Origin: Lytechinus variegatus
Lineage: Eukaryota; Echinodermata; Echinoidea; Temnopleuroida; Toxopneustidae
NCBI RefSeq assembly: GCF_018143015.1
Contig: NC_054751.1
Span: 22,148,425 to 22,212,424 of the forward strand
Length of the DNA: 64,000 bases
Direction: 5' to 3'
Shown: positions 13,501 to 46,727 of the stretch, one piece after another
How the letters are laid out: every line of letters begins with the position of its first letter
Position numbering within the stretch: position 1 is the first letter of the stretch
The notes under the pieces: generated by a model
Databases searched by the model: none
Told to the model about the DNA's origin: nothing
The model's input: only the letters and a program-made list of their open reading frames with translations
Made by a program: the position numbers and the translations under genes

Positions 13501-16500
13501 TTACATTATCTCACCTTGTTTCATTCTCACTTGGCTCTCCTTTGGTGTGGTTTATAACATGCATCTGAGTAACATCTGGAGCAAAGAATGATACGTCAGC
13601 TCCACCCCGACTAAGGTGAACCCATACACTGCAACGGAAAAACATTCCCATGGTCAAATTTGGACACCACTTGAGATTTCCTATCATGTAAACTACAATG
13701 ATTATAGTATTACATCACATCTTTGATTGTTCTTCTTTCATAGAGTTTGAAGTCTATTTTTTAACAAACATGAATTACATTTACTGTTTTGCATAACACA
13801 TCAGATAGCTAAATACAATATATCCTCAGAGTTTCAGCCAATTCCACACTGACAAGTGGTTTGAAATATGCAATTATATTTTGTTAAATTTCAAAAAGTT
13901 TATCCGAGAAAACATGTATTCAGTTAATCCTCTATAGTCAACAACATAATACACATTGTAATGATTTGGAACAGAGTTATTCACACTTTTTTTTTGGGGG
14001 GGGGGTGGGTGTTACCAAAACTGGCTTGTAAGTAATTTTACTTGCAAGCCGTATGCATAACTTTTGTAAAAACTAGAGGGATCTTACGCTGAAGCCTCAT
14101 GAACTTCACTGCCATCATAGACTCCTGATCCTGATAAAACCTGGAAAATATAATAACACTGATTGTAGAAATTAAACTTAAAACATAATGGGTGATTTCA
14201 AGTATTGTGTTGGGGTTGGAAGCATTAATTGGATTATGTTTCCTACCTCTAAAACCTACTCTTAGTTTACACAAACAATCCAGTTTACAATATTGACAGC
14301 TGTATAAACATCCTTTGACTGAATGACTATCTTTATTTTATGTTTGGTTTTATACTCATGTAAAATTGACTTAACGCTAGTAACACCAACACCAAAACAA
14401 AAAGGTGTAGGCGCCTCCACCGCATTGACGAGTGGACATCACGCGTGTCCAAAGAAACATGTAAAAAGGGTATCTTTTTCAAGATAGGGCTCGTTACGTA
14501 CGTAAACTGATAAGGGTGTAAAAAACACTAAAGCACTGAAAGGTACATGTATTGATGTACATGTTTTGCTAGGAAAGCTATGTGTTTACGGTCCAATTTG
14601 CGAGGGTATGAAAATAAAGGGTGCACATTTTGCGCCAAAACTCAGATCAACAGAGGCACTCGACCAAAAAAGTAGTAGGTATGTGCCCAGGCGAGACAAA
14701 AAAAAACAGGGGCCTTGGAGCGGGCTTATTGTAAAAAGGAGGGTCCTCGGAACTACAAATGATTGTGAAAATGGGGGTCCGTGCATGGTGGCACAGGCGG
14801 GGGGTGCGCTAGCACAGAGGCGTTGGTCGGAAAGCGCTCTGCGGCCGCTTTTCACCATAATTGCAGCTCATTGTAGCAGATCAATACGGCCGGAACGGCG
14901 TAAAGGAAAAATATGCCAAGCTTTGGAGCGGATTTCTTACTTCTTTTTTCTCGATAAGATGCTATGCTTTGGAGCGGCTTTCTTTGTTCTTTTAAGACAA
15001 AAATGTTATGCATTGTAACAGAAATTTGTTATTTTGAGTGTAAAAATGGGGGTCCCCTTGGTGGCACATACCCACTTACTATTTTATACTGAGTGCCCTC
15101 CCCCCCTCCAGTCTGCAGTATGGGCCTAGTAGCTAGTACATACACTGGAATAACCGTCATTTCTAAATTCTGGGGATTTATTTAACATTTTCTGACATTT
15201 TACTATTATTATGACATTAATATCATTGACATGAGTCATGAGTGGAGGCTGGAGCCAGTGTAGTTCAGCTGTGAAACAACAAGAGACTGAGAAGCTTGTT
15301 TTGGTCTACTCGATCTCGAGTAACTTGACTCACCAATTCACTTGAGTGCAAAGTTAATCAAACAAGCTACGTGTTAAATCCGGTGATTTTGTTCCCGTGT
15401 AATTTGAACTAATGTTTCACAAAATCGTGATATCCTTATTTGACATGTGTGCAAAAAGATTGCATGCACCGGTGAATGAAAATGTACTGATGGTGGGCCC
15501 CAAGTCTGCGCACCTAACAATTTGAGTTCAGATTTAACATGATTTTTTTCTTATTACACAAAATCTTTGAGTTGATAATGTTCCTTATATTATTAAGAGT
15601 AAGTGTACCAAATTTCTCATTAAATATAAAAGAAAATATAGGATTTTCTTGAAAAAACTGCGGGCAGTCATTTTCAGATTGAAAAAACAATCTACCCCAT
15701 GTCTGCGCACTCATTCACTTTGCACACGTTTCGGGGATTTTGATGACAAAGGCTGCATTTTTTAGGCTGTCACATGAAATGCCCTGAATTTATTATTTTT
15801 CCACCATTTTGAGTCGGATTTTTTAATGAATACCTGCCTATGTAACCGGCGTGAAGTTGGTTGGATATTCGATATTCGATATTCAAACTGTGAAGTTGGT
15901 TGGATATTCAGGTTCGATATTCAAACGCGCGTGAAGTTGGACAGATATTCAATATTCGATATTCAAAAATTAGGGGTTTTGAAAGCTAGCTAGGGGGTTT
16001 AAAAGGTGGAGAACGTCTCGGGCAACCATAAAATAGCTGGCTTGCCCTAATACGAGGGTTTTTTAGGGGACAAAAGTCATTGAATAAAAGGGTTGGAAAT
16101 TTCTAGTTTAATTTTTTAATTGACCATTTTTTAATTAAAAAAAGTATTTTTTTCAAGGGGCCCCCAGGGATATCCCGACGGCCTAGCCAGGGTAACCAAC
16201 TATCCTAACTTGTAGAACTTGATTCGGGCAACAAGATAAACACCTGCTTGACCCGGCGCATGCACGGTAAGGTGGCTCAAATTAACAAAATTAAAGGGAA
16301 TAAAGGGCTATTTAGACCATTTTTTAATTTAAAAAAAGTATTTTTTTCAAGGGGCCCCCAGGGATATCCCGACGGCCTAGCCAGGGTAACCACCTATCCT
16401 AACTTGTAGAACTTGATTCGGGCAACAAGATAAACACCTGCTTGACCCGGCGCATGCACATTAAGGGGGCTCAAATTAACAAAATTAAAGGGAATAAAGG

Positions 16501-19500
16501 GCTATTTAGACCAATTTTTAATTAAAAAAAGTATTTTTTTCAAGGGGCCCCCAGGGATATCCCGACGGCCTAGCCAGGGTAACCACCTATCCTAACTTGT
16601 AGAACTTGATTCGGGCAACAAGATAAACACCTGCTTGACCCGGCGCATGCACATTAAGGGGGCTCAAATTAACAAAATTAAAGGGAATAAAGGGCTATTT
16701 AGACCATTTTTAATTAAAAAAAGTATTTTTTTCAAGGGGCCCCCAGGGATATCCCGACGGCCTAGCCAGGGTAACCACCTATCCTAACTTGTAGAACTTG
16801 ATTCGGGCAACAAGATAAACACCTGCTTGACCCGGCGCATGCACATTAAGGGGGCTCAAATTAACAAAATTAAAGGGAATAAAGGGCTATTTAGACCATT
16901 TTTTAATTAAAAAATGTATTTTTTTCAAGGGGCCCCCAGGGATATCCCGACGGCCTAGCCAGGGTAACCACCTATCCTAACTTGTAGAACTTGATTCGGG
17001 CAACAAGATAAACACCTGCTTGACCCGGCGCATGCACGGTAAGGTTGCTCAAATTAATAAAATTAAAGGGAATAAAGGGCTATTTAGACCATTTTTTAAT
17101 TAAAAAAATATTTTTTTCAAGGGGCCCCCAGGGATATCCCGACGGCCTAGCCAGGGTAACCACCTATCCTAACTTGTAGAACTTGATTCGGGCAACAAGA
17201 TAAACACCTGCTTGACCCGGCGCATGCACATTAAGGGGGCTCAAATTAACAAAATTAAAGGGAATAAAGGGCTATTTAGACCATTTTTTAATTAAAAAAA
17301 GTATTTTTTTCAAGGGGCCCCCAGGGATATCCCGACGGCCTAGCCAGGGTAACCACCTATCCTAACTTGTAGAACTTGATTCGGGCAACAAGATAAACAC
17401 CTGCTTGACCCGGCGCATGCACGTTAAGGGGGCTCAAATTAACAAAATTAAAGGGAATAAAGGGCTATTTAGACCATTTTTTAATTAAAAAAATATTTTT
17501 TTCAAGGGGCCCCCAGGGATATCCCGACGGCCTAGCCAGGGTAACCACCTATCCTAACTTGTAGAACTTGATTCGGGCAACAAGATAAACACCTGCTTGA
17601 CCCGGCGCATGCACATTAAGGGGGCTCAAATTAACAAAATTAAAGGGAATAAAGGGCTATTTAGATCATTTTTTAATTAAAAAAAGTATTTTTTTCAAGG
17701 GGCCCCCAGGGATATCCCGACGGCCTAGCCAGGGTAACCACCTATCCTAACTTGTAGAACTTGATTCGGGCAACAAGATAAACACCTGCTTGACCCGGCG
17801 CATGCACATTAAGGGGGCTCAAATTAACAAAATTAAAGGGAATAAAGGGCTATTTAGACCATTTTTTAATTTAAAAAAGTATTTTTTTCAAGGGGCCCCC
17901 AGGGATATCCCGACGGCCTAGCCAGGGTAACCACCTATCCTAACTTGTAGAACTTGATTCGGGCAACAAGATAAACACCTGCTTGACCCGGCGCATGCAC
18001 ATTAAGGGGGCTCAAATTAACAAATTTAAAGGGAATAAAGGGCTATTTAGACCATTTTTTAATTAAAAAAAGTATTTTTTTCAAGGGGCCCCCAGGGATA
18101 TCCTGACGGCCTAGCCAGGGTAACCACCTATCCTAACTTGTAGAACTTGATTCGGGCAACAAGATAAACACCTGCTTGACCCGGCGCATGCACATTAAGG
18201 GGGCTCAAATTAACAAAATTAAAGGGAATAAAGGGCTAATTAGACCATTTTTTAATTAAAAAATGTATTTTTTACAAGGGGCCCCCAGGGATATCCCGAC
18301 GGCCTAGCCAGGGTAACCACCTATCCTAACTTGTAGAACTTGATTCGGGCAACAAGATAAACACCTGCTTGACCCGGCGCATGCACGGTAAGGTTGCTCA
18401 AATTAATAAAATTAAAGGGAATAAAGGGCTATTTAGACCATTTTTTAATTTAAAAAAAGTATTTTTTTCAAGGGGCCCCCAGGGATATCCCGACGGCCTA
18501 GCCGGGGTAACCACCTATCCTAACTTGTAGAACTTGATTCGGGCAACAAGATAAACACCTGCTTGACCCGGCGCATGCACATTAAGGGGGCTCAAATTAA
18601 CAAATTTAAAGGGAATAAAGGGCTATTTAGACCATTTTTTAATTAAAAAAAGTATTTTTTTCAAGGGGCCCCCAGGGATATCCTGACGGCCTAGCCAGGG
18701 TAACCACCTATCCTAACTTGTAGAACTTGATTCGGGCAACAAGATAAACACCTGCTTGACCCGGCGCATGCACATTAAGGGGGCTCAAATTAACAAAATT
18801 AAAGGGAATAAAGGGCTAATTAGACCATTTTTTAATTAAAAAAATTTATTTTTTACAAGGGGCCCCCAGGGATATCCCGACGGCCTAGCCAGGGTAACCA
18901 CCTATCCTAACTTGTAGAACTTGATTCGGGCAACAAGATAAACACCTGCTTGACCCGGCGCATGCACGGTAAGGTTGCTCAAATTAATAAAATTAAAGGG
19001 AATAAAGGGCTATTTAGACCATTTTTTAATTTAAAAAAAGTATTTTTTTCAAGGGGCCCCCAGGGATATCCCGACGGCCTAGCCGGGGTAACCACCTATC
19101 CTAACTTGTAGAACTTGATTCGGGCAACAAGATAAACACCTGCTTGACCCGGCGCATGCACATTAAGGGGGCTCAAATTAACAAATTTAAAGGGAATAAA
19201 GGGCTATTTAGACCATTTTTTAATTAAAAAAAGTATTTTTTTCAAGGGGCCCCCAGGGATATCCCGACGGCCTAGCCAGGGTAACCACCTATCCTAACTT
19301 GTAGAACTTAATTCGGGCAACAAGATAAACACCTGCTCGACTCGGCGCATGCACATTAAGGGGGCTCAAATTAACAAAATTAAAGGGAATAAAGGGCTAA
19401 TTAGACCATTTTTTAATTAAAAAATGTATTTTTTTCAAGGGCCCCCAGGGATATCCCGACGGCCTAGCCAGGGTAACCACCTATCCTAACTTGTAGAACT

Positions 19501-22500
19501 TGATTCGGGCAACAAGATAAACACCTGCTTGACCCGGCGCATGCACGGTAAGGTTGCTCAAATTAATAAAATTAAAGGGAATAAAGGGCTATTTAGACCA
19601 TTTTTTAATTTAAAAAAATATTTTTTTCAAGGGGCCCCCAGGGATATCCCGACGGCCTAGCCACGGTTACCACCTATCCTAACTTGTAGAACTTGATTCG
19701 GGCAACAAGATAAACACCTGCTTGACCCGGCGCATGCACATTAAGGGGGCTCAAATTAACAAAATTAAAGGGAATAAAGGGCTATTTAGACCATTTTTTA
19801 ATTAAAAAAAGTATTTTTTTCAAGGGGCCCCCAGGGATATCCCGACGGCCTAGCCAAGGTAACCACCTATCCTAACTTGGAGAACTCGATTCGGGCAACA
19901 AGATAAACACCTGCTTGACCCGGCGCATGCACATTAAGGGGGCTCAAATTAACAAAATTAAAGGGAATAAAGGGCTATTTAGACCATTTTTTAATTTAAA
20001 AAGTATTTTTTTCAAGGGGCCCCCAGGGATATCCCGACGGCCTAGCCAGGGTAACCACCTATCCTAACTTGTAGAACTTGATTCGGGCAACAAGATAAAC
20101 ACCTGCTTGACCCGGCGCATGCACATTAAGGGGGCTCAAATTAACAAAATTAAAGGGAATAAAGGGTTATTTAGACCATTTTTTAATTAAAAAAGGATTT
20201 TTTCGAGGGGCCCCCAGGGATATCCCGACGGCCTAGCCAGGGTAACCACCTATCCAAACTTGTAGAACTTGATTCGGTCAACAAGATAAACACCTGCTTG
20301 ACCCGGCGCATTCACATTAAGGGGGCTCAAATTAACAAAATTAAAGGGAATAAAGGGCTATTTAGACCATTTTTTAATTAAAAAAAGTATTTTTTTCAAG
20401 GGGCCCCCAGGGATATCCCGACGGCCTAGCCAGGGTAACCACCTATCCTAACTTGTAGAACTTGATTCGGGCAACAAGATAAACACCTGCTTGACCCGGC
20501 GCATGCACATTAAGGGGGCTCAAATTAACAAAATTAAAGGGAATAAAGGGCTATTTAGACCATTTTTTAATTAAAAAAAGTATTTTTTTCAAGGGGCCCC
20601 CAGGGATATCCCGACGGCCTAGCCAGGGTAACCACCTATCCTAACTTGTAGAACTTGATTCGGGCAACAAGATAAACACCTGCTTGACCCGGCGCATGCA
20701 CATTAAGGGGGCTCAAATTAACAAAATTAAAGGGAATAAAGGGCTAATTAGACCATTTTTTAATTAAAAAATGTATTTTTTTCAAGGGGCCCCCAGGGAT
20801 ATCCCGACGGCCTAGCCAGGGTAACCACCTATCCTAACTTGTAGAACTTGATTCGGGCAACAAGATAAACACCTGCTTCACCCGGCGCATGCACGGTAAG
20901 GTTGCTCAAATTAATAAAATTAAAGGGAATAAAGGGCTAATTAGACCATTTTTTAATTAAAAAATGTGATTTTTTCAAGGGGCCCCCAGGGATATCCCGA
21001 CGGCCTAGCCAGGGTAACCACCTATCCTAACTTGTAGAACTTGATTCGGGCAACAAGATAAACACCTGCTTGACCCAGCGCATGCACGGTAAGGTTGCTC
21101 AAATTAATAAAATTAAAGGGAATAAAGGGCTAATTAGACCATTTTTTAATTAAAAAATGTATTTTTTTCAAGGGGCACCCAGGGATATCCCGACGGCCTA
21201 GCCAGGGTAACCACCTATCCTAACTTGTAGAACTTGATTCGGGCAACAAGATAAACACCTGCTTGACCCGGCGCATGCACAGTAAGGTTGCTCAAATTAA
21301 TAAAATTAAAGGGATTAAAGGGCTATTTAGACCATTTTTTAATTTAAAAAAATATTTTTTTCAAGGGGCCCCCAGGGATATCCCGACGGCCTAGCCAGGG
21401 TTACCACCTATCCTAACTTGTAGAACTTGATTCGGGCAACAAGATAAACACCTGCTTGACCCGGCGCATGCACATTAAGGGGGCTCAAATTAACAAAATT
21501 AAAGGGAATAAAGGGCTATTTAGACCATTTTTTAATTAAAAAAAGTATTTTTTTCAAGGGGCCCCCAGGGATATCCCGACGGCCTAGCCAGGGTAACCAC
21601 CTATCCTAACTTGTAGAACTTGATTCGGGCAACAAGATAAACACCTGCTTGACCCGGCGCATGCACATTAAGGGGGCTCAAATTAACAAAATTAAAGGGA
21701 ATAAAGGGCTACTTAGACCATTTTTTAATTAAAAAAAGTATTTTTTACAAGGGGCCCCCAGGGATATCCCGACGGCCTAGCCAGGGTAACCACCTATCCT
21801 AACTTGTAGAACTTGATTCGGGCAACAAGATAAACACCTGCTTGACCCGGCGCATGCACGTAAGGTTGCTCAAATTAATAAAATTAAAGGGAATAAAGGG
21901 CTATTTAGACCATTTTTTAATTTAAAAAAATATTTTTTTTCAAGGGGCCCCCAGGGATATCCCGACGGCCTAGCCAGGGTAACCACCTATCCTAACTTGT
22001 AGAACTTGATTCGGGCAACAAGATAAACACCTGCTTGACCCGGCGCATGCACATTAAGGGGGCTCAAATTAACAAAATTAAAGGGAATAAAGGGCTATTT
22101 AGACCATTTTTTAATTAAAAAAAGTATTTTTTTCAAGGGGCCCCCAGGGATATCCCGACGGCCTAGCCGGGGTAACCACCTATCCTAACTTGTAGAACTT
22201 GATTCGGGCAACAAGATAAACACCTGCTTGACCCGGCGCATGCACATTAAGGGGGCTCAAATTAACAAAATTAAAGGGAATAAAGGGCTATTTAGACCAT
22301 TTTTTAATTAAAAAAAGTATTTTTTTCAAGGGGCCCCCAGGGATATCCCGACGGCCTAGCCAGGGTAACCACCTATCCTAACTTGTAGAACTTGATTCGG
22401 GCAACAAGATAAACACCTGCTTGACCCGGCGCATGCACATTAAGGGGGCTCAAATTAACAAAATTAAAGGGAATAAAGGGCTAATTAGACCATTTTTTAA

Positions 22501-25500
22501 TTAAAAAATGTATTTTTTTCAAGGGGCCCCCAGGGATATCCCGACGGCCTAGCCAGGGTAACCACCTATCCTAACTTGTAGAACTTGATTCGGGCAACAA
22601 GATAAACACCTGCTTGACCCGGCGCATGCACGGTAAGGTTGCTCAAATTAATAAAATTAAAGGGAATAAAGGGCTAATTAGACCATTTTTTAATTAAAAA
22701 ATGTGATTTTTTCAAGGGGCCCCCAGGGATATCCCGACGGCCTAGCCAGGGTAACCACCTATCCTAACTTGTAGAACTTGATTCGGGCAACAAGATAAAC
22801 ACCTGCTTGACCCGGCGCATGCACGGTAAGGTTGCTCAAATTAATAAAATTAAAGGGAATAAAGGGCTAATTAGACCATTTTTTAATTAAAAAATGTATT
22901 TTTTTCAAGGGGCCCCCAGGGATATCCCGACGGCCTAGCCAGGGTAACCACCTATCCTAACTTGTAGAACTTGATTCGGGCAACAAGATAAACACCTGCT
23001 TGACCCGGCGCATGCACATTAAGGGGGCTCAAATTAACAAAATTAAAGGGAATAAAGGGCTATTTAGACCATTTTTTAATTAAAAAAAGTATTTTTTTCA
23101 AGGGGCCCCCAGGGATATCCCGACGGCCTAGCCAGGGTAACCACCTATCCTAACTTGTAGAACTTGATTCGGGCAACAAGATAAACACCTGCTTGACCCG
23201 GCGCATGCACATTAAGGGGGCTCAAATTAACAAAATTAAAGGGAATAAAGGGCTAATTAGACCATTTTTTAATTAAAAAATGTATTTTTTTCAAGGGGCC
23301 CCCAGGGATATCCCGACGGCCTAGCCAGGGTAACCACCTATCCTAACTTGTAGAACTTGATTCGGGCAACAAGATAAACACCTGCTTGACCCGGCGCATG
23401 CACATTAAGGGGGCTTAAATTAACAAAATTAAAGGGAATAAAGGGCTATTTAGACCATTTTTTAATTAAAAAAAGTATTTTTTTCAAGGGGCCCCCAGGG
23501 ATATCCCGACGGCCTAGCCAGGGTAACCACCTATCCTAACTTGTAGAACTTGATTCGGGCAACAAGATAAACACCTGCTTGACCCGGCGCATGCACGGTA
23601 AGGTTGCTCAAATTAATAAAATTAAAGGGAATAAAGGGCTATTTAGACCATTTTTTAATTTAAAAAAATATTTTTTTTCAAGGGGCCCCCAGGGATATCC
23701 CGACGGCCTAGCCAGGGTTACCACCTATCCTAACTTGTAGAACTTGATTCGGGCAACAAGATAAACACCTGCTTGACCCGGCGCATGCACATTAAGGGGG
23801 CTCAAATTAACAAAATTAAAGGGAATAAAGGGCTATTTAGACCATTTTTTAATTAAAAAAAGTATTTTTTTCAAGGGGCCCCCAGGGATATCCCGACGGC
23901 CTAGCCAGGGTAACCACCTATCCTTACTTGTAGAACTTGATTCGGGCAACAAGATAAACACCTGCTTGACCCGGCGCATGCACATTAAGGGGGCTCAAAT
24001 TAACAAAATTAAAGGGAATAAAGGGCTATTTAGACCATTTTTTAATTAAAAAAAGTATTTTTTTCAAGGGGCACCAGGGATATCCCGACGGCCTAGCCAG
24101 GGTAACCACCTATCCTAACTTGTAGAACTTGATTCGGGCAACAAGATAAACACCTGCTTGACCCGGCGCATGCACATTAAGGGGGCTCAAATTAACAAAA
24201 TTAAAGGGAATAAAGGGCTATTTAGACCATTTTTTAATTAAAAATGTATTTTTTTCAAGGGGCCCCCAGGGATATCCCGACGGCCTAGCCAGGGTAACCA
24301 CCTATCCTAACTTGTAGAACTTGATTCGGGCAACAAGATAAACACCTGCTTGACCCGGCGCATGCACGGTAAGGTTGCTCAAATTAATAAAATTAAAGGG
24401 AATAAAGGGCTATTTAGACCATTTTTTAATTTAAAAAAATATTTTTTTCAAGGGGCCCCCAGGGATATCCCAACGGCCTAGCCAGGGTTACAACCTATCC
24501 TAACTTGTAGAACTTGATTCGGGCAACAAGATAAACACCTGCTTGACCCGGCGCATGCACATTAAGGGGGCTCAAATTAACAAAATTAAAGGGAATAAAG
24601 GGCTATTTAGACCATTTTTTAATTAAAAAAAGTATTTTTTTCAAGGGGCCCCCAGGGATATCCCGACGGCCTAGCCAGGGTAACCACCTATCCTAACTTG
24701 TAGAACTTGATTCGGGCAACAAGATAAACACCTGCTTGACCCGGCGCATGCACATTAAGGGGGCTCAAATTAACAAAATTAAAGGGAATAAAGGGCTATT
24801 TAGACCATTTTTTAATTTAAAAAGTATTTTTTTCAAGGGGCCCCCAGGGATATCCCGACGGCCTAGCCAGGGTAACCACCTATCCTAACTTGTAGAACTT
24901 GATTCGGGCAACAAGATAAACACCTGCTTGACCCGGCGCATGCACATTAAGGGGGCTCAAATTAACAAAATTAAAGGGAATAAAGGGTTATTTAGACCAT
25001 TTTTTAATTAAAAAAAGTATTTTTTCGAGGGGCCCCCAGGGATATCCCGACGGCCTAGCCAGGGTAACCACCTATCCAAACTTGTAGAACTTGATTCGGG
25101 CAACAAGATAAACACCTGCTTGACCCGGCGCATTCACATTAAGGGGGCTCAAATTAGCAAATTTAAAGGGAATAAAGGGCTATTTAGACCATTTTTTAAT
25201 TAAAAAAAGTATTTTTTTCAAGGGGCCCCAGGGATATCCCGACGGCCTAGCCAGGGTAGCCACCTATCCTAACTTGTAGAACTTGATTCGGGCAACAAGA
25301 TAAACACCTGCTTGACCCGGCGCATGCACATTAAGGGGGCTCAAATTAACAAAATTAAAGGGAATAAAGGGCTATTTAGACCATTTTTTAATTAAAAAAA
25401 GTATTTTTTTCAAGGGGCCCCCAGGGATATCCCGACGGCCTAGCCAGGGTAACCACCTATTCTAACTTGTAGAACTTGATTCGGGCAACAAGATAAACAC

Positions 25501-28500
25501 CTGCTTGACCCGGCGCATGCACATTTAGGGGGCTCAAATTAACATAATTAAAGGGAATAAAGGGCTATTTAAACCATTTTTCAATTTAAAAAAGTATTTT
25601 TTTCAAGGGGCCCCCAGGGATATCCCGACGGCCTAGCCAGGGTAACCACCTATCCTAACTTGTAGAACTTGATTCGGGCAACAAGATAAACACCTGCTTG
25701 ACCCGGCGCATGCACATTTAGGGGGCTCAAATTAACACAATTAAAGGGAATAAAGGGCTATTTAAACCATTTTTCAATTTAAAAAATATTTTTTTCAAGG
25801 GGCCCCCAGGGATATCCCGACGGCCTAGCCAGGGTTACCACCTATCCAAACTTGTAGAACTTGATTCGGGCAACAAGATAAACACCTGCTTGACCCGGCG
25901 CATGCACATTAAGGGGGCTCAAATTAACAAAATTAAAGGGAATAAAGGGTTATTTAGACCATTTTTTAATTTAAAAAAGTATTTTTTTCAAGGGGCCCCC
26001 AGGGATATCCCGACGGCCTAGCCAGGGTAACCACCTATCCTAACTTGTAGAACTTGATTCGGGCAACAAGATAAACACCTGCTTGACCCGGCGCATGCAC
26101 ATTAAGGGGGCTCAAATTAACAAAATTAAAGGGAATAAAGGGCTATTTAGACCATTTTTTAATTAAAAAAGTATTTTTTTCAAGGGGCACCCAGGGATAT
26201 CCCGACGGCCTAGCCAGGGTAACCACCTATCCTAACTTGTAGAACTTGATTCGGGCAACAAGATAAACACCTGCTTGACCCGGCGCATGCACATTAAGGG
26301 GGCTCAAATTAACAAAATTAAAGGGAATAAAGAGCCATTTAGAGCATTGGGAACTACTGCCCCGACTTCCTCCCTATCTCTTAGTGCCGGCAATGGGAAG
26401 AGTAGAAAAAAAAAGGAAAGGGAGAAAATGAAATAGAAGATATCATTTATTCTACTCTTTTTATTTACTTGTATTAATTATATTTGATTTTTTATACAAA
26501 ATTATGAAAAAACATTAAAAACTTTAAAAGAAAAAAAAATAGAAGAGAGAGAAGGGAAAGGGACTCGGAGAGAGAGCAAAGAAAAGGAGGGGGGAATAGA
26601 TAGAAAAATAGGGAGAACGGAGAGGTCATATTGTATGAACAGGATATTTTAGGATTGTGCCCCGAGCAACTTTGAGATTGTTTTAGACATGGTGTGCAGA
26701 AAATGAACATCATATATCTTTCATCTTCCTTTCCTTTCTTTCCTTTTGTCATTTCTTTTTTGTTCCCAGTTTCAGAACTTTTTAGGGGACTTGGGGCAGT
26801 GTTATCGGATGGGGTCCGGAACAATAATGGCACAAGGGTTTTTATCCTATAAGGAGGCAAAATAACATTCTCGGTGGGGGGGGGGGTGACACACAATTTT
26901 TTTAAATCGAGCGAGAAGTGCGAGCTAATTTCATTTCAAAATAATAGTGTCCCTCCTGACTTGAAAAGCGACCTGTTAAGGACTAGCTGTTTGCATTAAT
27001 TGGGTCATGAAGATGACCCCTCCATTCTTCTTATGATATATAATTGCGTTGATTCAATTATATCTAATGATATTGATTATATTGATTTAATTTGACATGT
27101 ATGTTAATTTATATTTAGATTACTTTCAAATATGTATTTTTTTTCTTCCAATATTGAATTTTGTTCATGCTATTGTTTATTTAAATTGAATCAATCTATT
27201 TTGTACTTATTTGTATCATTTTGAAGAATGAAAATAAATTTGAATTGAATTGAATTGAATATCTCACCAAATAAATAGTGTGAGCGCGAAGGGATGATAC
27301 CTGGACGTTCTAAGCACTTTTTGTCATCATGAACTGAATGGGTATCTAATTCGCTGAAAATATTTCAGTTATGAAAATTGTGGACACGCAGGATATGTAT
27401 CTCGCTAAAACAAATAACGAAAACTCTAATGACATTGGATTTTTAAGACCAATGTAAATAGATAATTTACTTATTTCAATTATTAGTTACTGCGGGCGCG
27501 TAGCGCGAGCGACATCGTGAATTTTATATAATGACCTGAGAGATTTATGTTAGTGACCACAATTGTCGGGAGCTAAATGCTAACGGTGAATGGATGAGAA
27601 AATTTTCAAAATTTTAAGAACAAAAAAAAAGTTTTGGAGAATTATGACAATGTTTACTAAACATTTTTTTCTTCAAAATTTCGGGGGGGGGGGGGGGGGC
27701 AACTCACTGGGCCTCATCCTTTGGTGCCACCACTGGTCTGGGGCGGAGCCCCCGGAACCTCGTGATATTTTAAAACTTTGCAGATGGCCAACATTTTTTT
27801 ATCATATCGCGGGTATATACACCACATATTATATTAAAGGGATGGTCCGGGCTGAAAGTATGTATAGCTTAATAAATAGAGTAAAATTCAATTAGCAAAA
27901 TGCCAAAAATTTCATCAAAATCGAATAACAAAGAAGTTTAAATTTTAGCAATGTTTTGTGAAAACAGTATGGTCATGAATATTCATTAGGTGGGCTGATG
28001 ATGTCACATCTCCACTTGTTCTTTTGTATTTTACTATATGAAATTAGGTCTATTCAAATTTTTTCCTCCAAGAGCTACAAAAATTGGATTGTCCATTGAT
28101 TTATTGCATTTGATATTATTTTATTGCTGCAACTTATTTCACTATAAGGGAGACATTATTCACACAAGTATGAAATAAGGGGGAAAAAATTATGTATTAA
28201 CACGTTAAGAAAAATGAAAGTTGAGATGTAACATCCACAGCCCATCTAATAAATATTCATGATGATTGTTTTCACAAAATATTGCTAAACTTTAAACTTG
28301 TTTGTTTGTTTTATTTCATAACAATATACATAAGAGATACATACAATAACGGAGGATCACCCAATTCAGCTGTATTTGCAAAATACTGCTGTTCTTCCTT
28401 GGGGTCCTACATTTACCAAACAAAGTAATATACACCATTAAAAATACTAAAAGAAAAAATTTCCAAGTAAAATACATTGACAGAAAAGTGTTCAAAAAAA

Positions 28501-34500: not shown

Positions 34501-37500
34501 CGCCGGGTCAAGCAGGTGTTTATCTTGTTGCCCGAATCAAGTTCTACAAGTTAGGATAGGTGGTTACCCTGGCTAGGCCGTCGGGATATCCCTGGGGGCC
34601 CCTTGAAAAAAATACTTTTTTAAATTGAAAAATGGTTTAAATAGCCCTTTATTCCCTTTAATTGTGTTAATTTGAGCCCCCTAAATGTGCATGCGCCGGG
34701 TCAAGCAGGTGTTTATCTTGTTGCCCGAATCAAGTTCTACAAGTTAGAATAGGTGGTTACCCTGTCTAGGCCGTCGGGATATCCCTGGGGCCCCTTGAAA
34801 AAAATACTTTTTTTAATAAAAAAATGGTCTAAATAGCCCTTTATTCCCTTTAATTTTCTTAATTTGAGCCCCCTAAATGTGCATGCGCCGGGTCAAGCAG
34901 GTGTTTATCTTGTTGCCCGAATCAAGTTCTATAAGTTAGGATAGGTGGTTACCTTGGCTAGGCCGTCGGGATATCCCTGGGGGCCCCTTGAAAAAAATAC
35001 TTTTTTTAATTAAAAAATGGTCTTAATAGCCCTTTATTCCCTTTAATTTTGTTAATTTGAGCCCCCTAAATGTGCATGCGCCGGGTCAAGCAGGTGTTTA
35101 TCTTGTTGCCCGAATCAAGTTCTACAAGTTAGGATAGGTGGTTACCCTGGCTAGGCCGTCGGGATATCCCTGGGGGCCCCTTGAAAAAAATACTTTTTTA
35201 AATTGAAAAATGGTTTAAATAGCCCTTTATTCCCTTTAATTATGTTAATTTGAGCCCCCTAAATGTGCATGCGCCGGGTCAAGCAGGTGTTTATCTTGTT
35301 GCCCGAATCAAGTTCTACAAGTTAGAATAGGTGGTTACCCTGGCTAGGCCGTCGGGATATCCCTGGGGGCCCCTTGAAAAAAATACTTTTTTAAATTGAA
35401 AAATGGTTTAAATAGCCCTTTATTCCCTTTAATTATGTTAATTTGAGCCCCCTAAATGTGCATGCACCGGGTCAAGCAGGTGTTTATCTTGTTGCCCGAA
35501 TCAAGTTCTACAAGTTAGAATAGGTGGTTACCCTGGCTAGGCCGTCGGGATATCCCTGGGGCCCCTTGAAAAAAATACTTTTTTTAATTAAAAAATGGTC
35601 TAAATAGCCCTTTATTCCCTTTAATTTTCTTAATTTGAGCCCCCTAAATGTGCATGCGCCGGGTCAAGCAGGTGTTTATCTTGTTGCCCGAATCAAGTTC
35701 TACAAGTTAGGATAGGTGGTTACCTTGGCTAGGCCGTCGGGATATCCCTGGGGCCCCTTGAAAAAAATACTTTTTTTAATTAAAAAATGGTCTTAATAGC
35801 CCTTTATTCCCTTTAATTTTGTTAATTTGAGCCCCCTAAATGTGCATGCGCCGGGTCAAGCAGGTGTTTATCTTGTTGCCCGAATCAAGTTCCAGAAGTT
35901 AGGATAGGTGGTTACCCTGGCTAGGCCGTCGGGATATCCCTGGGGGCCCCTTGAAAAAAATACTTTTTTAAATTGAAAAATGGTTTAAATAGCCCTTTAT
36001 TCCCTTTAATTATGTTAATTTGAGCCCCCTAAATGTGCATGCGCCGGGTCAAGCAGGTGTTTATCTTGTTGCCCGAATCAAGTTCTACAAGTTAGAATAG
36101 GTGGTTACCCTGTCTAGGCCGTCGGGATATCCCTGGGGGCCCCTTGAAAAAAATACTTTTTTTAATTAAAAAATGGTCTAAATAGCCCTTTATTCCCTTT
36201 AATTTTCTTAATTTGAGCCCCCTAAATGTGCATGCGCCGGGTCAAGCAGGTGTTTATCTTGTTGCCCGAATCAAGTTCTACAAGTTAGGATAGGTGGTTA
36301 CCTTGGGTAGGCCGTCGGGATATCCCTGGGGGCCCCTTGAAAAAAATACTTTTTTTAATTAAAAAATGGTCTTAATAGCCCTTTATTCCCTTTAATTTTG
36401 TTAATTTGAGCCCCCTAAATGTGCATGCGCCGGGTCAAGCAGGTGTTTATCTTGTTGCCCGAATCAAGTTCTACAAGTTAGGATAGGTGGTTACCCTGGC
36501 TAGGCCGTCGGGATATCCCTGGGGGCCCCTTGAAAAAAATACTTTTTTAAATTGAAAAATGGTTTAAATAGCCCTTTATTCCCTTTAATTATGTTAATTT
36601 GAGCCCCCTAAATGTGCATGCGCCGGGTCAAGCAGGTGTTTATCTTGTTGCCCGAATCAAGTTCTACAAGTTAGAATAGGTGGTTACCCTGGCTAGGCCG
36701 TCGGGATATCCCTGGGGGCCCCTTGAAAAAAATACTTTTTTAAATTGAAAAATGGTTTAAATAGCCCTTTATTCCCTTTAATTATGTTAATTTGAGCCCC
36801 CTAAATGTGCATGCGCCGGGTCAAGCAGGTGTTTATCTTGTTGCCCGAATCAAGTTCTACAAGTTAGAATAGGTGGTTACCCTGGCTAGGCCGTCGGGAT
36901 ATCCCTGGGGGCCCCTTGAAAAAAATACTTTTTTTAATTAAAAAATGGTCTAAATAGCCCTTTATTCCCTTTAATTTTCTTAATTTGAGCCCCCTTAATG
37001 TGCATGCGCCGGGTCAAGCAGGTGTTTATCTTGTTGCCCGAATCGAGTTCTCCAAGTTAGGATAGGTGGTTACCTTGGCTAGGCCGTCGGGATATCCCTG
37101 GGGGCCCCTTGAAAAAAATACTTTTTTTAATTAAAAAATGGTCTAAATAGCCCTTTATTCCCTTTAATTTTGTTAATTTGAGCCCCCTTAATGTGCATGC
37201 GCCGGGTCAAGCAGGTGTTTATCTTGTTGCCCGAATCAAGTTCTACAAGTTAGAATAGGTGGTTACCCTGGCTAGGCCGTCGGGATATCCCTGGGGGCCC
37301 CTTGAAAAAAATACTTTTTTTAATTAAAAAATGGTCTAAATAGCCCTTTATTCCCTTTAATTTTGTTAATTTGAGCCCCCTAAATGTGCATGCGCCGGGT
37401 CAAGCAGGTGTTTATCTTGTTGCCCGAATCGAGTTCTCCAAGTTAGGATAGGTGGTTACCTTGGCTAGGCCGTCGGGATATCCCTGGGGGCCCCTTGAAA

Positions 37501-40500
37501 AAAATACTTTTTTTAATTAAAAAATGGTCTAAATAGCCCTTTATTCCCTTTAATTTTGTTAATTTGAGCCCCTAAATGTGCATGCGCCGGGTCAAGCAGG
37601 TGTTTATCTTGTTGCCCGAATCAAGTTCTACAAGTTAGGATAGGTGGTTACCCTGGCTAGGCCGTCGGGATATCCCTGGGGGCCCCTTGAAAAAAATACT
37701 TTTTTAAATTGAAAAATGGTTTAAATAGCCCTTTATTCCCTTTAATTGTGTTAATTTGAGCCCCCTAAATGTGCATGCGCCGGGTCAAGCAGGTGTTTAT
37801 CTTGTTGCCCGAATCAAGTTCTACAAGTTAGAATAGGTGGTTACCCTGTCTAGGCCGTCGGGATATCCCTGGGGCCCCTTGAAAAAAATACTTTTTTTAA
37901 TTAAAAAATGGTCTAAATAGCCCTTTATTCCCTTTAATTTTCTTAATTTGAGCCCCCTAAATGTGCATGCGCCGGGTCAAGCAGGTGTTTATCTTGTTGC
38001 CCGAATCAAGTTCTATAAGTTAGGATAGGTGGTTACCTTGGCTAGGCCGTCGGGATATCCCTGGGGGCCCCTTGAAAAAAATACTTTTTTTAATTAAAAA
38101 ATGGTCTTAATAGCCCTTTATTCCCTTTAATTTTGTTAATTTGAGCCCCCTAAATGTGCATGCCCGGGTCAAGCAGGTGTTTATCTTGTTGCCCGAATCA
38201 AGTTCTACAAGTTAGGATAGGTGGTTACCCTGGCTAGGCCGTCGGGATATCCCTGGGGGCCCCTTGAAAAAAATACTTTTTTAAATTGAAAAATGGTTTA
38301 AATAGCCCTTTATTCCCTTTAATTATGTTAATTTGAGCCCCCTAAATGTGCATGCGCCGGGTCAAGCAGGTGTTTATCTTGTTGCCCGAATCAAGTTCTA
38401 CAAGTTAGAATAGGTGGTTACCCTGGCTAGGCCGTCGGGATATCCCTGGGGGCCCCTTGAAAAAAATACTTTTTTAAATTGAAAAATGGTTTAAATAGCC
38501 CTTTATTCCCTTTAATTATGTTAATTTGAGCCCCCTAAATGTGCATGCGCCGGGTCAAGCAGGTGTTTATCTTGTTGCCCGAATCAAGTTCTACAAGTTA
38601 GAATAGGTGGTTACCCTGGCTAGGCCGTCGGGATATCCCTGGGGGCCCCTTGAAAAAAATACTTTTTTTAATTAAAAAATGGTCTAAATAGCCCTTTATT
38701 CCCTTTAATTTTGTTAATTTGAGCCCCCTAAATGTGCATGCGCCGGGTCAAGCAGGTGTTTATCTTGTTGCCCGAATCGAGTTCTACAAGTTAGGATAGG
38801 TGGTTACCTTGGCTAGGCCGTCGGGATATCCCTGGGGGCCCCTTGAAAAAAATACTTTTTTTAATTAAAAAATGGTCTAAATAGCCCTTTATTCCCTTTA
38901 ATTTTGTTAATTTGAGCCCCCTTAATGTGCATGCGCCGGGTCAAGCAGGTGTTTATCTTGTTGCCCGAATCAAGTTCCAGAAGTTAGGATAGGTGGTTAC
39001 CCTGGCTAGGCCGTCGGGATATCCCTGGGGGCCCCTTGAAAAAAATACTTTTTTAAATTGAAAAATGGTTTAAATAGCCCTTTATTCCCTTTAATTATGT
39101 TAATTTGAGCCCCCTAAATGTGCATGCGCCGGGTCAAGCAGGTGTTTATCTTGTTGCCCGAATCAAGTTCTACAAGTTAGAATAGGTGGTTACCCTGTCT
39201 AGGCCGTCGGGATATCCCTGGGGGCCCCTTGAAAAAAATACTTTTTTTAATTAAAAAATGGTCTAAATAGCCCTTTATTCCCTTTAATTTTCTTAATTTG
39301 AGCCCCCTAAATGTGCATGCGCCGGGTCAAGCAGGTGTTTATCTTGTTGCCCGAATCAAGTTCTACAAGTTAGGATAGGTGGTTACCTTGGGTAGGCCGT
39401 CGGGATATCCCTGGGGGCCCCTTGAAAAAAATACTTTTTTTAATTAAAAAATGGTCTTAATAGCCCTTTATTCCCTTTAATTTAATTAATTTGAGCCCCC
39501 TAAATGTGCATGCGCCGGGTCAAGCAGGTGTTTATCTTGTTGCCCGAATCAAGTTCTACAAGTTAGGATAGGTGGTTACCCTGGCTAGGCCGTCGGGATA
39601 TCCCTGGGGGCCCCTTGAAAAAAATACTTTTTTAAATTGAAAAATGGTTTAAATAGCCCTTTATTCCCTTTAATTATGTTAATTTGAGCCCCCTAAATGT
39701 GCATGCGCCGGGTCAAGCAGGTGTTTATCTTGTTGCCCGAATCAAGTTCTACAAGTTAAAATAGGTGGTTACCCTGGCTAGGCCGTCGGGATATCCCTGG
39801 GGGCCCCTTGAAAAAAATACTTTTTTAAATTGAAAAATGGTTTAAATAGCCCTTTATTCCCTTTAATTATGTTAATTTGAGCCCCCTAAATGTGCATGCG
39901 CCGGGTCAAGCAGGTGTTTATCTTGTTGCCCGAATCAAGTTCTACAAGTTAGAATAGGTGGTTACCCTGGCTAGGCCGTCGGAATATCCCTGGGGGCCCC
40001 TTGAAAAAAATACTTTTTTTAATTAAAAAATGGTCTAAATAGCCCTTTATTCCCTTTAATTTTCTTAATTTGAGCCCCCTTAATGTGCATGCGCCGGGTC
40101 AAGCAGGTGTTTATCTTGTTGCCCGAATCGAGTTCTACAAGTTAGGATAGGTGGTTACCTTGGCTAGGCCGTCGGGATATCCCTGGGGGCCCCTTGAAAA
40201 AAATACTTTTTTTAATTAAAAAATGGTCTAAATAGCCCTTTATTCCCTTTAATTTTGTTAATTTGAGCCCCCTAAATGTGCATGCGCCGGGTCAAGCAGG
40301 TGTTTATCTTGTTGCCCGAATCAAGTTCTACAAGTTAGGATAGGTGGTTACCCTGGCTAGGCCGTCGGGATATCCCTGGGGGCCCCTTGAAAAAAATACT
40401 TTTTTAAATTGAAAAATGGTTTAAATAGCCCTTTATTCCCTTTAATTATGTTAATTTGAGCCCCCTAAATGTGCATGCGCCGGGTCAAGCAGGTGTTTAT

Positions 40501-43500
40501 CTTGTTGCCCGAATCAAGTTCTACAAGTTAGAATAGGTGGTTACCCTGGCTAGGCCGTCGGGATATCCCTGGGGGCCCCTTGAAAAAAATACTTTTTTAA
40601 ATTGAAAAATGGTTTAAATAGCCCTTTATTCCCTTTAATTATGTTAATTTGAGCCCCCTTAATGTGCATGCGCCGGGTCAAGCAGGTGTTTATCTTGTTG
40701 CACGAATCAAGTTCTACAATTTAGAATAGGTGGTTACCCTGGCTAGGCCGTCGGGATATCCCTGGGGGCCCCTTGAAAAAAATACTTTTTTTAATTAAAA
40801 AATGGTCTAAATAGCCCTTTATTCCCTTTAATTTTGTTAATTTGAGCCCCCTAAATGTGCATGCGCCGGGTCAAGCAGGTGTTTATCTTGTTGCCCGAAT
40901 CAAGTTCTACAAGTTAGGATAGGTGGTTACCTTGGCTAGGCCGTCGGGATATCCCTGGGGGCCCCTTGAAAAAAATACTTTTTTTAATTAAAAAATGGTC
41001 TAAATAGCCCTTTATTCCCTTTAATTTTGTTAATTTGAGCCCCCTTAATGTGCATGCGCCGGGTCAAGCAGGTGTTTATCTTGTTGCCCGAATCAAGTTC
41101 CAGAAGTTAGGATAGGTGGTTACCCTGGCTAGGCCGTCGGGATATCCCTGGGGGCCCCTTGAAAAAAATACTTTTTTAAATTGAAAAATGGTTTAAATAG
41201 CCCTTTATTCCCTTTAATTATGTTAATTTGAGCCCCCTAAATGTGCATGCGCCGGGTCAAGCAGGTGTTTATCTTGTTGCCCGAATCAAGTTCTACAAGT
41301 TAGGATAGGTGGTTACCCGGCTAGGCCGTCGGGATATCCCTGGGGGCCCCTTGAAAAAAATACTTTTTTTAATTAAAAAATGGTCTAAATAGCCCTTTAT
41401 TCCCTTTAATTTTGTTAATTTGAGCCCCCTAAATGTGCATGCGCCGGGTCAAGCAGGTGTTTATCTTGTTGCCCGAATCGAGTTCTACAAGTTAGGATAG
41501 GTGGTTACCTTGGCTAGGCCGTCGGGATATCCCTGGGGGCCCCTTGAAAAAAATACTTTTTTTAATTAAAAAATGGTCTAAATAGCCCTTTATTCCCTTT
41601 AATTTTGTTAATTTGAGCCCCCTAAATGTGCATGCGCCGGGTCAAGCAGGTGTTTATCTTGTTGCCCGAATCAAGTTCTACAAGTTAGGATAGGTGGTTA
41701 CCCTGGCTAGGCCGTCGGGATATCCCTGGGGGCCCCTTGAAAAAAATACTTTTTTTAATTAAAAAATGGTCTAAATAGCCCTTTATTCCCTTTAATTTTC
41801 TTAATTTGAGCCCCCTAAATGTGCATGCGCCGGGTCAAGCAGGTGTTTATCTTGTTGCCCGAATCAAGTTCTACAAGTTAGGATAGGTGGTTACCTTGGC
41901 TAGGCCGTCGGAATATCCCTGGGGGCCCCTTGAAAAAAATACTTTTTTTAATTGAAAAATGATTTAAATAGCCCTTTATTCCCTTTAATTATGTTAATTT
42001 GAGCCCCCTAAATGTGCATGCGCCGGGTCAAGCAGGTGTTTATCTTGTTGCCCGAATCAAGTTCTACAAGTTAGAATAGCTGGTTACCCTGGCTAGGCCG
42101 TCGGGATATCCCTGGGGGCCCCTTGAAAAAAATACTTTTTTTAATTAAAAAATGGTCTAAATAGCCCTTTATTCCCTTTAATTTTCTTAATTTGAGCCCC
42201 CTAAATGTGCATGCGCCGGGTCAAGCAGGTGTTTATCTTGTTGCCCGAATCAAGATCTACAAGTTAGGATAGGTGGTTACCCTGGCTAGGCCGTCGGGAT
42301 ATCCCTGGGGGCCCCTTGAAAAAAATACTTTTTTAAATTGAAAAATGGTTTAAATAGCCCTTTATTCCCTTTAATTATGTTAATTTGAGCCCCCTAAATG
42401 TGCATGCGCCGGGTCAAGCAGGTGTTTATCTTGTTGCCCGAATCAAGTTCTACAAGTTATGATAGGTGGTTACCCTGGCTAGGCCGTCGGGATATCCCTG
42501 GGGCCCCTTGAAAAAAATACTTTTTTTAATTAAAAAATGGTCTAAATAGCCCTTTATTCCCTTTAATTTTGTTAATTTGAGCCCCCTAAATGTGCATGCG
42601 CCGGGTCAAGCAGGTGTTTATCTTGTTGCCCGAATCGAGTTCTACAAGTTAGGATAGGTGGTTACCTTGGCTAGGCCGTCGGGATATCCCTGGGGCCCCT
42701 TGAAAAAAATACTTTTTTTAATTAAAAAATGGTCTTAATAGCCCTTTATTCCCTTTAATTTTGTTAATTTGAGCCCCCTAAATGTGCATGCGCCGGGTCA
42801 AGCAGGTGTTTATCTTGTTGCCCGAATCAAGTTCTACAAGTTATGATAGGTGGTTACCCTGGCTAGGCCGTTGGGATATCCCTGGGGGCCCCTTGAAAAA
42901 AATACTTTTTTTAATTAAAAAATGGTCTTAATAGCCCTTTATTCCCTTTAATTTTCTTAATTTGAGCCCCCTAAATGTGCATGCGCCGGGTCAAGCAGGT
43001 GTTTATCTTGTTGCCCGAATCGAGTTCTCCAAGTTAGGATAGGTGGTTACCTTGGCTAGGCCGTCGGGATATCCCTGGGGGCCCCTTGAAAAAAATACTT
43101 TTTTTAATTGAAAAATGGTTTAAATAGCCCTTTATTCCCTTTAATTATGTTAATTTGAGCCCCCTAAATGTGCATGCGCCGGGTCAAGCAGGTGTTTATC
43201 TTGTTGCCCGAATCAAGTTCTACAAGTTAGGATAGGTGGTTACCCTGGCTAGGCCGTCGGGATATCCCTGGGGGCCCCTTGAAAAAAATACTTTTTTTAA
43301 TTAAAAAATGGTCTAAATAGCCCTTTAATCCCTTTAATTTTGTTAATTTGAGCCCCCTTAATGTGCATGCGCCGGGTCAAGCAGGTGTTTATCTTGTTGC
43401 CCGAATCGAGTTCTCCAAGTTAGGATAGGTGGTTACCTTGGCTAGGCCGTCGGGATATCCCTGGGGGCCCCTTGAAAAAAATACTTTTTTTAATTAAAAA

Positions 43501-46500
43501 ATGGTCTAAATAGCCCTTTATTCCCTTTAATTTTGTTAATTTGAGCCCCCTAAATGTGCATGCGCCGGGTCAAGCAGGTGTTTATCTTGTTGCCCGAATC
43601 AAGTTCTACAAGTTAGGATAGGTGGTTACCCTGGCTAGGCCGTCGGGATATCCCTGGGGGCCCCTTGAAAAAAATACTTTTTTAAATTGAAAAATGGTTT
43701 AAATAGCCCTTTATTCCCTTTAATTATGTTAATTTGAGCCCCCTAAATGTGCATGCGCCGGGTCAAGCAGGTGTTTATCTTGTTGCCCGAATCAAGTTTT
43801 ACAAGTTAGAATAGATGGTTACCCTGGCTAGGCCGTCGGGATATCCCTGGGGGCCCCTTGAAAAAAATACTTTTTTTAATTAAAAAATGGTCTAAATAGC
43901 CCTTTATTCCCTTTAATTTTGTTAATTTGAGCCCCCTTAATGTGCATGCGCCGGGTCAAGCAGGTGTTTATCTTGTTGCCCGAATCGAGTTCTCCAAGTT
44001 AGGATAGGTGGTTACCTTGGCTAGGCCGTCGGGATATCCCTGGGGGCCCCTTGAAAAAAATACTTTTTTTAATTAAAAAATGGTCTTAATAACCCTTTAT
44101 TCCCTTTAATTTTCTTAATTTGAGCCCCCTAAATGTGCATGCGCCGGGTCAAGCAGGTGTTTATCTTGTTGCCCGAATCAAGTTCTACAAGTTAGGATAG
44201 GTGGTTACCCTGGCTAGGCCGTCGGGATATCCCTGGGGCCCCTTGAAAAAAATACTTTTTTAAATTGAAAAATGGTTTAAATAGCCCTTTATTCCCTTTA
44301 ATTATGTTAATTTGAGCCCCCTAAATGTGCATGCGCCGGGTCAAGCAGGTGTTTATCTTGTTGCCCGAATCAAGTTCTACAAGTTAGAATAGGTGGTTAC
44401 CCTGGCTAGGCCGTCGGGATATCCCTGGGGGCCCCTTGAAAAAAATATTTTTTTTAATTAAAAAATGGCCTAAATAGCCCTTTATTCCCTTTAATTTTCT
44501 TAATTTTAGCCCCCTAAATGTGCATGCGCCGGGTCAAGCAGGTGTTTATCTTGTTGCCCGAATCGAGTTCTCCAAGTTAGGATAGGTGGTTACCTTGGCT
44601 AGGCCGTCGGGATATCCCTGGGGGCCCCTTGAAAAAAATACTTTTTTTAATTAAAAAATGGTCTAAATAGCCCTTTATTCCCTTTAATTTTGTTAATTTG
44701 AGCCCCCTAAATGTGCATGCGCCGGGTCAAGCAGGTGTTTATCTTGTTGCCCGAATCAAGTTCTACAAGTTAGGATAGGTGGTTACCCTGGCTAGGCCGT
44801 CGGGATATCCCTGGGGGCCCCTTGAAAAAAATACTTTTTTAAATTGAAAAATGGTCTAAATTGCCCTTTATTCCCTTTAATTTTGTTAATTTGAGCCCCC
44901 TTAATGTGCATGCGCCGGGTCAAGCAGGTGTTTATCTTGTTGCCCGAATCAAGTTCTACAAGTTAGGATAGGTGGTTACCCTGGCTAGGCCGTCGGGATA
45001 TCCCTGGGGGCCCCTTGAAAAAAATACTTTTTTTAATTAAAAAATGGTCTAAATAGCCCTTTATTCCCTTTAATTTTGTTAATTTGAGCCCCCTTAATGT
45101 GCATGCGCCGGGTCAAGCAGGTGTTTATCTTGTTGCCCGAATCAAGTTCTACAAGTTAGGATAGGTGGTTACCTTGGCTAGGCCGTCGGGATATCCCTGG
45201 GTGCCCCTTGAAAAAAATACTTTTTTAAATTAAAAAATGGTCTAAATAGCCCTTTATTCCCTTTAATTTTGTTAATTTGAGCCCCCTAAATGTGCATGCG
45301 CCGGGTCAAGCAGGTGTTTATCTTGTTGCCCGAATCAAGTTCTACAAGTTAGGATAGGTGGTTACCCTGGCTAGGCCGTCGGGATATCCCTGGGGGCCCC
45401 TTGAAAAAAATACTTTTTTTAATTAAAAAATGGTCTAAATAGCCCTTTATTCCCTTTAATTTTCTTAATTTGAGCCCCCTTAATGTGCATGCGCCGGGTC
45501 AAGCAGGTGTTTATCTTGTTGCCCGAATCGAGTTCTCCAAGTTAGGATAGGTGGTTACCTTGGCTAGGCCGTCGGGATATCCCTGGGGGCCCCTTGAAAA
45601 AAAATACTTTTTTTAATTAAAAAATGGTCTAAATAGCCCTTTATTCCCTTTAATTTTGTTAATTTGAGCCCCCTTAATGTGCATGCGCCGGATCAAGTAG
45701 GTGTTTATCTTGTTGCCCGAGTCGAGTTCTACAAGTAAGAATAGGTGGTTATCCTTGCTAGGCCGTCGGGATATCCGTGGGGGCCCCTTGGAAAAAATAC
45801 TTTTTTAAATAAAAAAATGGTCTAAATAGCCCTTTATTCCCTTTAATTTTTTTAATTTGAGCCCCCTAAATGTGCATGCGCCGGGTCAAGAAGGTGTTTA
45901 TCTTGTTGCCTGAGCCGAGTCCTACAAGTTAGGATAGGAGGTCACCCTGGCTAGGCCGTCGGGATATCCCTTGGGGCCCCTTGAAAAAAAATTAAACTAG
46001 AAATTTCCAACCCTTTTATTCAATGACTTTTGTCCCCTTAAAAACCCTCGTATTAGGGCAAGCCAGCTATTTTATGGTTGCCCGAGACGTGCTCCACCTT
46101 TTAAACCCGGCCCCCTAGCTAGCTTTCAAAACCCCTAATTTTTGAATATCGAATATTGAATATCTGACCAACTTCACACGCGTTTGAATATCGAACCTGA
46201 ATATCCAACCAACTTCACAGTTTGAATATCGAATATCCAATATCCAACCAACTTCACGCCGGTGCCTATGTATTGCATTCGTAAAGTTCGTGCTCGTTGC
46301 GTATCTTCTTTAACTAGAATCGCGCAGATACGCGGGTGCGCAGACTTGGGAGACCGCGCAGACATGGGGGAACTGACCATACTGAGCAGTGCAGAGTGCC
46401 CCATTATGTACCCTCATTTCCCTCTTACCACAGCTACACGATTTCCACTCATTTCTCTGGTAAGATGAATTGATCGTGACAATACTTTGGAGACCTCAGT

Positions 46501-46545: not shown

Positions 46546-46727
46546 AATGTAAATGAGTTACAAGTACAACAGCACTCCACTGACGATCGTGAGAGCAAGC
46601 TGGAGGCCGATGCTTTGAAAGATAGGTCACTTATGTGTGGAGGAAGTGATTCATCTTCCCTACGGTATACCTCCTTGGGTGTACCCCCTTTGCTATTTCA
46701 TAATTCAGTTGACGCTGGCGCTGCACT
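46546..46727. promoter_or_regulatory. Bidirectional promoter/5'UTR between GATD3 and SGPP
   Basis: Only 182 bp separate the two divergent start codons, so both 5'UTRs and core promoters must overlap here or in neighbouring coding DNA. Visible motifs are an ETS-like AGGAAGTG at 46641-46648 and a nuclear-receptor-like AGGTCA near 46624; such short matches are weak evidence. No TATA box is clear at a sensible distance. Confidence 0.7.

Follow-up and report, generated by a model that had tools for sequence, protein, structure and literature searches.

A 30-kb foldback-type element of Lytechinus variegatus whose arms carry two oppositely oriented satellite-scale arrays

Introduction

Foldback transposons such as FB of Drosophila melanogaster and TU of sea urchin carry tandem subunits within their inverted repeats. 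Here we describe an element with this architecture that occupies positions 15845-46263 (30.4 kb) of a 64-kb stretch of the Lytechinus variegatus genome (contig NC_054751.1; "the window" below, with an N count of 0), and whose subunits and arms are longer than those of FB and TU. Foldbacks of the FB and TU hosts are mentioned in PMC4079207.

The closest described system is Tetris, a Drosophila virilis foldback whose terminal inverted repeats (TIRs) contain tandem units of ~220 bp and whose target site duplications (TSDs) are 8-10 bp long (PMC4079207). Tetris resembles the element described here in having an outer TIR domain, tandem units in the arms, a non-coding middle, and units that have expanded into long arrays. 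Its TIR-220 arrays contain as many as 66 units, which multiplies out to about 14.5 kb, and its long arrays are bracketed by two TIR-FD signals in fiber fluorescence in situ hybridization (fiber-FISH); in addition, a 37-bp stretch of the outer TIR is ~80% like the tandem unit (PMC4079207). Tetris differs in that its TIRs reach 1,735 bp and one described copy has three or four left-arm units, and the available sections do not report its long arrays within a single copy that has a TSD and two resolved arms. The present element, which is likened to Tetris by description and not by sequence, contains 53 and 86 units inside one TSD-bounded copy. An initial annotation of this stretch regarded the length of its arms as far beyond that of known foldbacks. 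This claim does not hold, because Tetris arrays of up to 66 units place the array length found here not far beyond what is known.

A second related system is Tm1, a Mutator/Foldback family of root-knot nematodes, which shares composite TIRs made of tandem repeats, unequal TIR sizes and TSDs that are mostly 9 bp, and in which the number of TIR tandem repeats varies (PMC3169594). Tm1 differs in its ~14-bp subunits and in its element sizes of 1,080 and 2,593 bp, and one of its members encodes a Phantom-type Mutator transposase, whereas none was seen in the element here (PMC3169594). The seeding of satellite DNA by foldbacks is likewise already published, since Tetris has been proposed as such a seed (PMC4079207); the idea is listed in two reviews (PMC9659126, PMC12628747), and a further paper names Tetris once, in its reference list (PMC12910113). 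A literature search, with most subscription papers and the repeat databases outside its scope, found no precedent closer than Tetris. The element thus looks like a very large example of already described foldbacks whose end repeats grow satellite-like. What the locus adds is a case that can be followed base by base, in which the arm interiors of a TSD-bounded foldback have grown into two satellite-scale arrays, with both arms fully assembled (53 and 86 units) and one intact TSD.

Results and discussion

Structure of the element

The element and its flanks are composed of the following features, with the basis of each call in parentheses.

15836..15844, no strand: left 9-bp TSD, GCCTATGTA (sequence match and base-composition chance)
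15845..16112, + strand: left TIR, 268 bp (TIR alignment, Tandem Repeats Finder [TRF] and motif count)
16122..26348, + strand: left array, 53 units of ~193 bp (TRF and anchor count)
26349..29472, no strand: core, 3,124 bp (open reading frame [ORF] list and Pfam in six frames)
29473..45990, - strand: right array, 86 units of ~193 bp, with multi-unit block duplications (TRF, anchor and run test)
45991..46263, - strand: right TIR, 273 bp (TIR start match and alignment)
46264..46272, no strand: right 9-bp TSD, GCCTATGTA (sequence match and base-composition chance)

The TIR start, ACCGGCGTGAAGTTGGTTGG, has a single + strand copy, at 15845, and a single inverted copy, at 46244-46263. Alignment of the two TIRs gives 263 identical bases out of 268 aligned (98.1%), with five substitutions and one 5-bp indel. 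The 9-bp sequence GCCTATGTA, found at 15836 and 46264, abuts the outer side of both element ends and has no further occurrence in the window (two in total, both strands counted); by base composition, the chance of a 9-bp match at one given junction pair is ~6e-6. TRF reports a period of 193 in both arrays, with 53.0 copies at 16122-26348 and 85.7 copies at 29473-45990, each at 96% matches. An in-unit anchor recurs at spacings of 191-194 and gives 139 units: 53 in the left array, and 86 in the right array when that is reverse-complemented.

These counts bear out the initial annotation in its proposal of ~98% identical TIRs, a perfect 9-bp target duplication, and about 139 copies of a ~193-bp unit divided into two opposite arrays around a 3.1-kb core. 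Its arms of 10 and 16 kb stand as sizes of TIR plus array (the arrays measure 10.2 kb and 16.5 kb), while the TIR itself is just ~270 bp. The element shows the tandem-subunit inverted repeats, terminal TSD and unequal arms (53 and 86 units in one copy) of a foldback, and its units, joined head-to-tail, form the long homogeneous arrays typical of a satellite. Since the arms are mostly tandem subunits and the element is bounded by TIRs and a TSD, tandem array and transposable element are, as had been suggested, physically one thing at this locus.

In our view this is probably a single copy of a foldback-type DNA transposon that is itself non-autonomous and was moved in trans by a Mutator-like transposase, with a unit derived from the inner TIR and arms that lengthened separately.

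The TIRs and the origin of the 193-bp unit

The outer ~123 bp of each TIR consist of about three subrepeats of ~39-41 bp each (TRF). The motif GTGAAGTTGG, which in the left TIR lies within these subrepeats, has three exact copies in each TIR and none elsewhere in the window. When one mismatch is allowed there are seven window matches, the seventh at 58242; shuffles gave a mean of 3.15, and seven or more in 3/100.

The inner part of each TIR resembles the array unit. A unit profile was searched with nhmmer against the whole window with the arrays masked, and the two best of its eight matches lie in the TIRs:

16007..16092, + strand: inner left TIR, weakly unit-like, on the left-array strand (E 0.3, second of 8 matches)
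46011..46097, - strand: inner right TIR, weakly unit-like, on the right-array strand (E 0.092, first of 8 matches)

The eight matches were obtained with a rotated version of the profile, the rotation having been picked after the similarity was seen by eye; the unrotated profile gave 14 matches, which are not used here. Both inner-TIR matches fall within about 20 bp of the array register, as counted by hand. The two E values are not independent, because the two TIRs are copies of each other. Under loose scoring, 10/300 shuffles matched the unit-TIR score for the right TIR and 3/300 for the left. Because the inner TIR weakly resembles the unit, the unit may derive from it, and we regard this descent as probable, not proven.

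Alternatively, the 193-bp unit could have been a genomic satellite unrelated to the element and taken up by it, instead of an amplified part of the TIR. The weakness of the unit-TIR similarity favors this view, and there is precedent in the capture of tandem repeats by MITEs (miniature inverted-repeat transposable elements) and Helitrons described in a review (PMC12628747). Capture would nevertheless need to have happened twice to give arrays in mirror-image orientation, or once followed by duplication of the arm, and it leaves aside that the top two unit matches outside the arrays both fall in the TIRs, on the right strand and within ~20 bp of register. We therefore consider a captured satellite a rather unlikely source of the arrays.

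Variation within and between the arms

For comparison of individual units, 137 of the 139 were used (52 left, 85 right), because the final unit of either arm is lost when the arrays are cut at the anchor. The mean p-distance is the same within either arm (3.2%) and rises to 4.1% when left units are compared with right ones. At alignment column 102, A is present in 50/52 left units and T in 72/85 right units; at column 148, A is present in 31/85 right units versus 2/52 left units (L49 and L50). Variants are mostly arm-specific, with a few long perfect matches between the arms. The units most unlike the consensus of the 137 are R02 (8.2%), second from the right TIR, and L30 (7.2%), inside the left array; R01 differs by 6.2% and L01, at the left edge, by 4.1%. 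Diverged edge units are therefore present on the right only, where R02 and R01 deviate.

Collinear runs, defined as three or more units with at most one difference each, were compared with 100 shuffles of unit order. The right arm contains 11 such runs against a shuffle mean of 0.9, and 0/100 shuffles reached 11; its longest run is 6 units, compared with a shuffle maximum of 4, and its longest perfect direct repeat extends over 860 bp, with copies spaced 6,554 bp apart. The right arm thus carries duplicated multi-unit blocks. In the left arm, a perfect repeat of 492 bp is found at a spacing of 2,509 bp. Between left and right, no runs were present in either direction; when up to two differences were allowed, one 3-unit run per direction was found, as also reached in 18/100 and 15/100 shuffles. 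Since left-right collinear runs are absent beyond the shuffle level, the arms are not mirror images. The two arrays run in opposite orientation, as noted in the initial annotation, and are not inverted copies of each other in collinear order.

Among the best 12 perfect inter-arm matches listed, those longer than 300 bp form two clusters. One joins the left arm at 25.33-25.4 kb (L49-L50, up to 343 bp) to several places in the right arm, and the other joins the right arm at ~45.17 kb, near the right TIR, to several places in the left arm (up to 311 bp). The longest stretch in the left array is

25395..25737, + strand: 343 bp running from the last part of L48 into L50, also present without differences in the right arm (possible exchange trace)

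Because perfect matches of more than 300 bp stand against a mean divergence of 4.1%, they suggest limited sequence exchange between the arms. The TIR divergence (5 of 268, 1.9%) is unsafe as an insertion date if the arms exchange sequence.

The comparison of the arms also bears on whether the structure could be an assembly or library artefact, namely a false palindrome that arises when a single array is copied back in reverse complement as a foldback chimera. Mis-assembly is known to produce inverted arrays, and the assembled length of an array is uncertain. The structure described here is that of the assembled sequence. Set against this, the arrays differ in length (10.2 versus 16.5 kb) and in variant spectrum, the left-right runs are absent at one difference or fewer and at shuffle level at up to two, the TIRs differ by five substitutions and an indel, and the 9-bp TSD lies outside both. 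An assembly mirror is very unlikely, because the arms differ in length and variants and share no collinear near-identical runs; even if the structure is correct, the array lengths may be off by some units.

Mode of movement and growth of the arms

Insertion by cut and paste is the direct reading of the TIRs and TSD. Mutator TSDs are about 8-11 bp long and most often 9 bp, and the TSD here is a perfect 9 bp. Only three ORFs of at least 150 aa are present in the 64-kb window, in keeping with eukaryotic DNA. A hidden transposase in the core was considered and rejected, as Pfam searches of all six frames of the 3,124-bp core (X at each stop) gave no match at E up to 0.5; the element is apparently non-coding. 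Since no Mutator-like element (MULE) transposase was found in the core by Pfam, the element is not classed as a member of Mutator but as probably Mutator-moved. Foldback architecture alone leaves the superfamily unfixed, because the foldback Galileo belongs to the P superfamily (PMC4079207).

In the transposon model, a transposase supplied from elsewhere, most likely Mutator-like as judged by the 9-bp TSD, would recognize the motif repeated in the outer TIR, and cut-and-paste transposition would have brought the element to this site. The unit may have been born by tandem duplication of the inner TIR, after which the array of each arm would have lengthened on its own, through unequal exchange or replication slippage, perhaps aided by hairpin-forming structure, with occasional gene conversion across the arms. 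We infer these modes of growth and conversion from the block duplications and the shared tracts. A Helitron or Helentron with central tandem repeats was rejected and has a negligible chance of being correct, as the ~270-bp TIRs and perfect 9-bp TSD are at odds with a class whose definition includes neither long TIRs nor a TSD. In the Pacific oyster many satellites are associated with Helitrons, and the two antiparallel arrays are unlike the Helitron layout given there (PMC8268682).

Several observations weigh against the model of a Mutator-mobilized foldback with a TIR-derived unit. It is drawn from one copy in a 64-kb window. No transposase was seen in the element, and the superfamily is assigned by TSD length. 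The unit-TIR similarity is weak and was initially spotted by eye, and under strict scoring it is not significant, with shuffles as good in 41/300 (right) and 57/300 (left). The left arm has one collinear run, which is not above shuffles (14/100 reached it), and the long inter-arm matches could instead be units retained since before the arms diverged. Finally, exact patterns of a single unit and a single TIR had no match in viral_contigs or genome_contigs, which hold viral and prokaryotic sequence where eukaryotic DNA is unexpected.

It is unlikely that the full 30 kb with both grown arrays transposes as a unit. If it did, a transposase could deliver pre-formed satellite arrays in opposing orientations to new sites, in this case possibly just upstream of a gene. 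We judge it more likely that the arms grew mostly after a shorter foldback had landed. Together with other copies or individuals, the locus could help decide between satellite spread by long-array transposition and growth after insertion, and could help tell how often opposed arms exchange sequence.

Other features of the core

The core contains a second, smaller element:

27834..28763, no strand: nested small inverted-repeat element, TTAA included (99-nt arms 87% alike)

It is flanked by TTAA at 27834-27837 and 28760-28763 and has the ends AGGGATGGTCCGGGCTGAAA; going by its TSD only, we take it to be piggyBac- or Kolobok-like. It presumably inserted later than the core was formed. By eye, the segment at 27030-27265 is AT-rich, ends in TTGAA/ATTGA repeats and has the look of a 3' tail fragment of a long or short interspersed element (LINE/SINE). 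Structured RNA was rejected, as no Rfam family reached its gathering score anywhere in the window.

Neighboring features in the window

Two ORFs lie to the right of the element, at 46728-47213 and 50429-50959, the first beginning 464 bases after the right end of the element. We take them to resemble exons of a sphingosine-1-phosphate phosphatase; Pfam gave no match in the three + frames of 46264-52000, and a PDB search gave none for the ORF at 50429-50959. Because 464 bases separate the element from the first ORF, the insertion may lie in the promoter region of the gene containing these ORFs.

A second foldback-like structure of 2.5 kb is present at 57483-60017. Its two ends carry inverted arrays built of 16-, 26- and 42-bp units (TTCGTTATTCCGAA type). 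Over 371 aligned positions the arms are about 88% alike, and inspection by eye showed no target duplication. Nested within it, at 59001-59150, is a small inverted-repeat element with 35-bp ends that are 94% alike.

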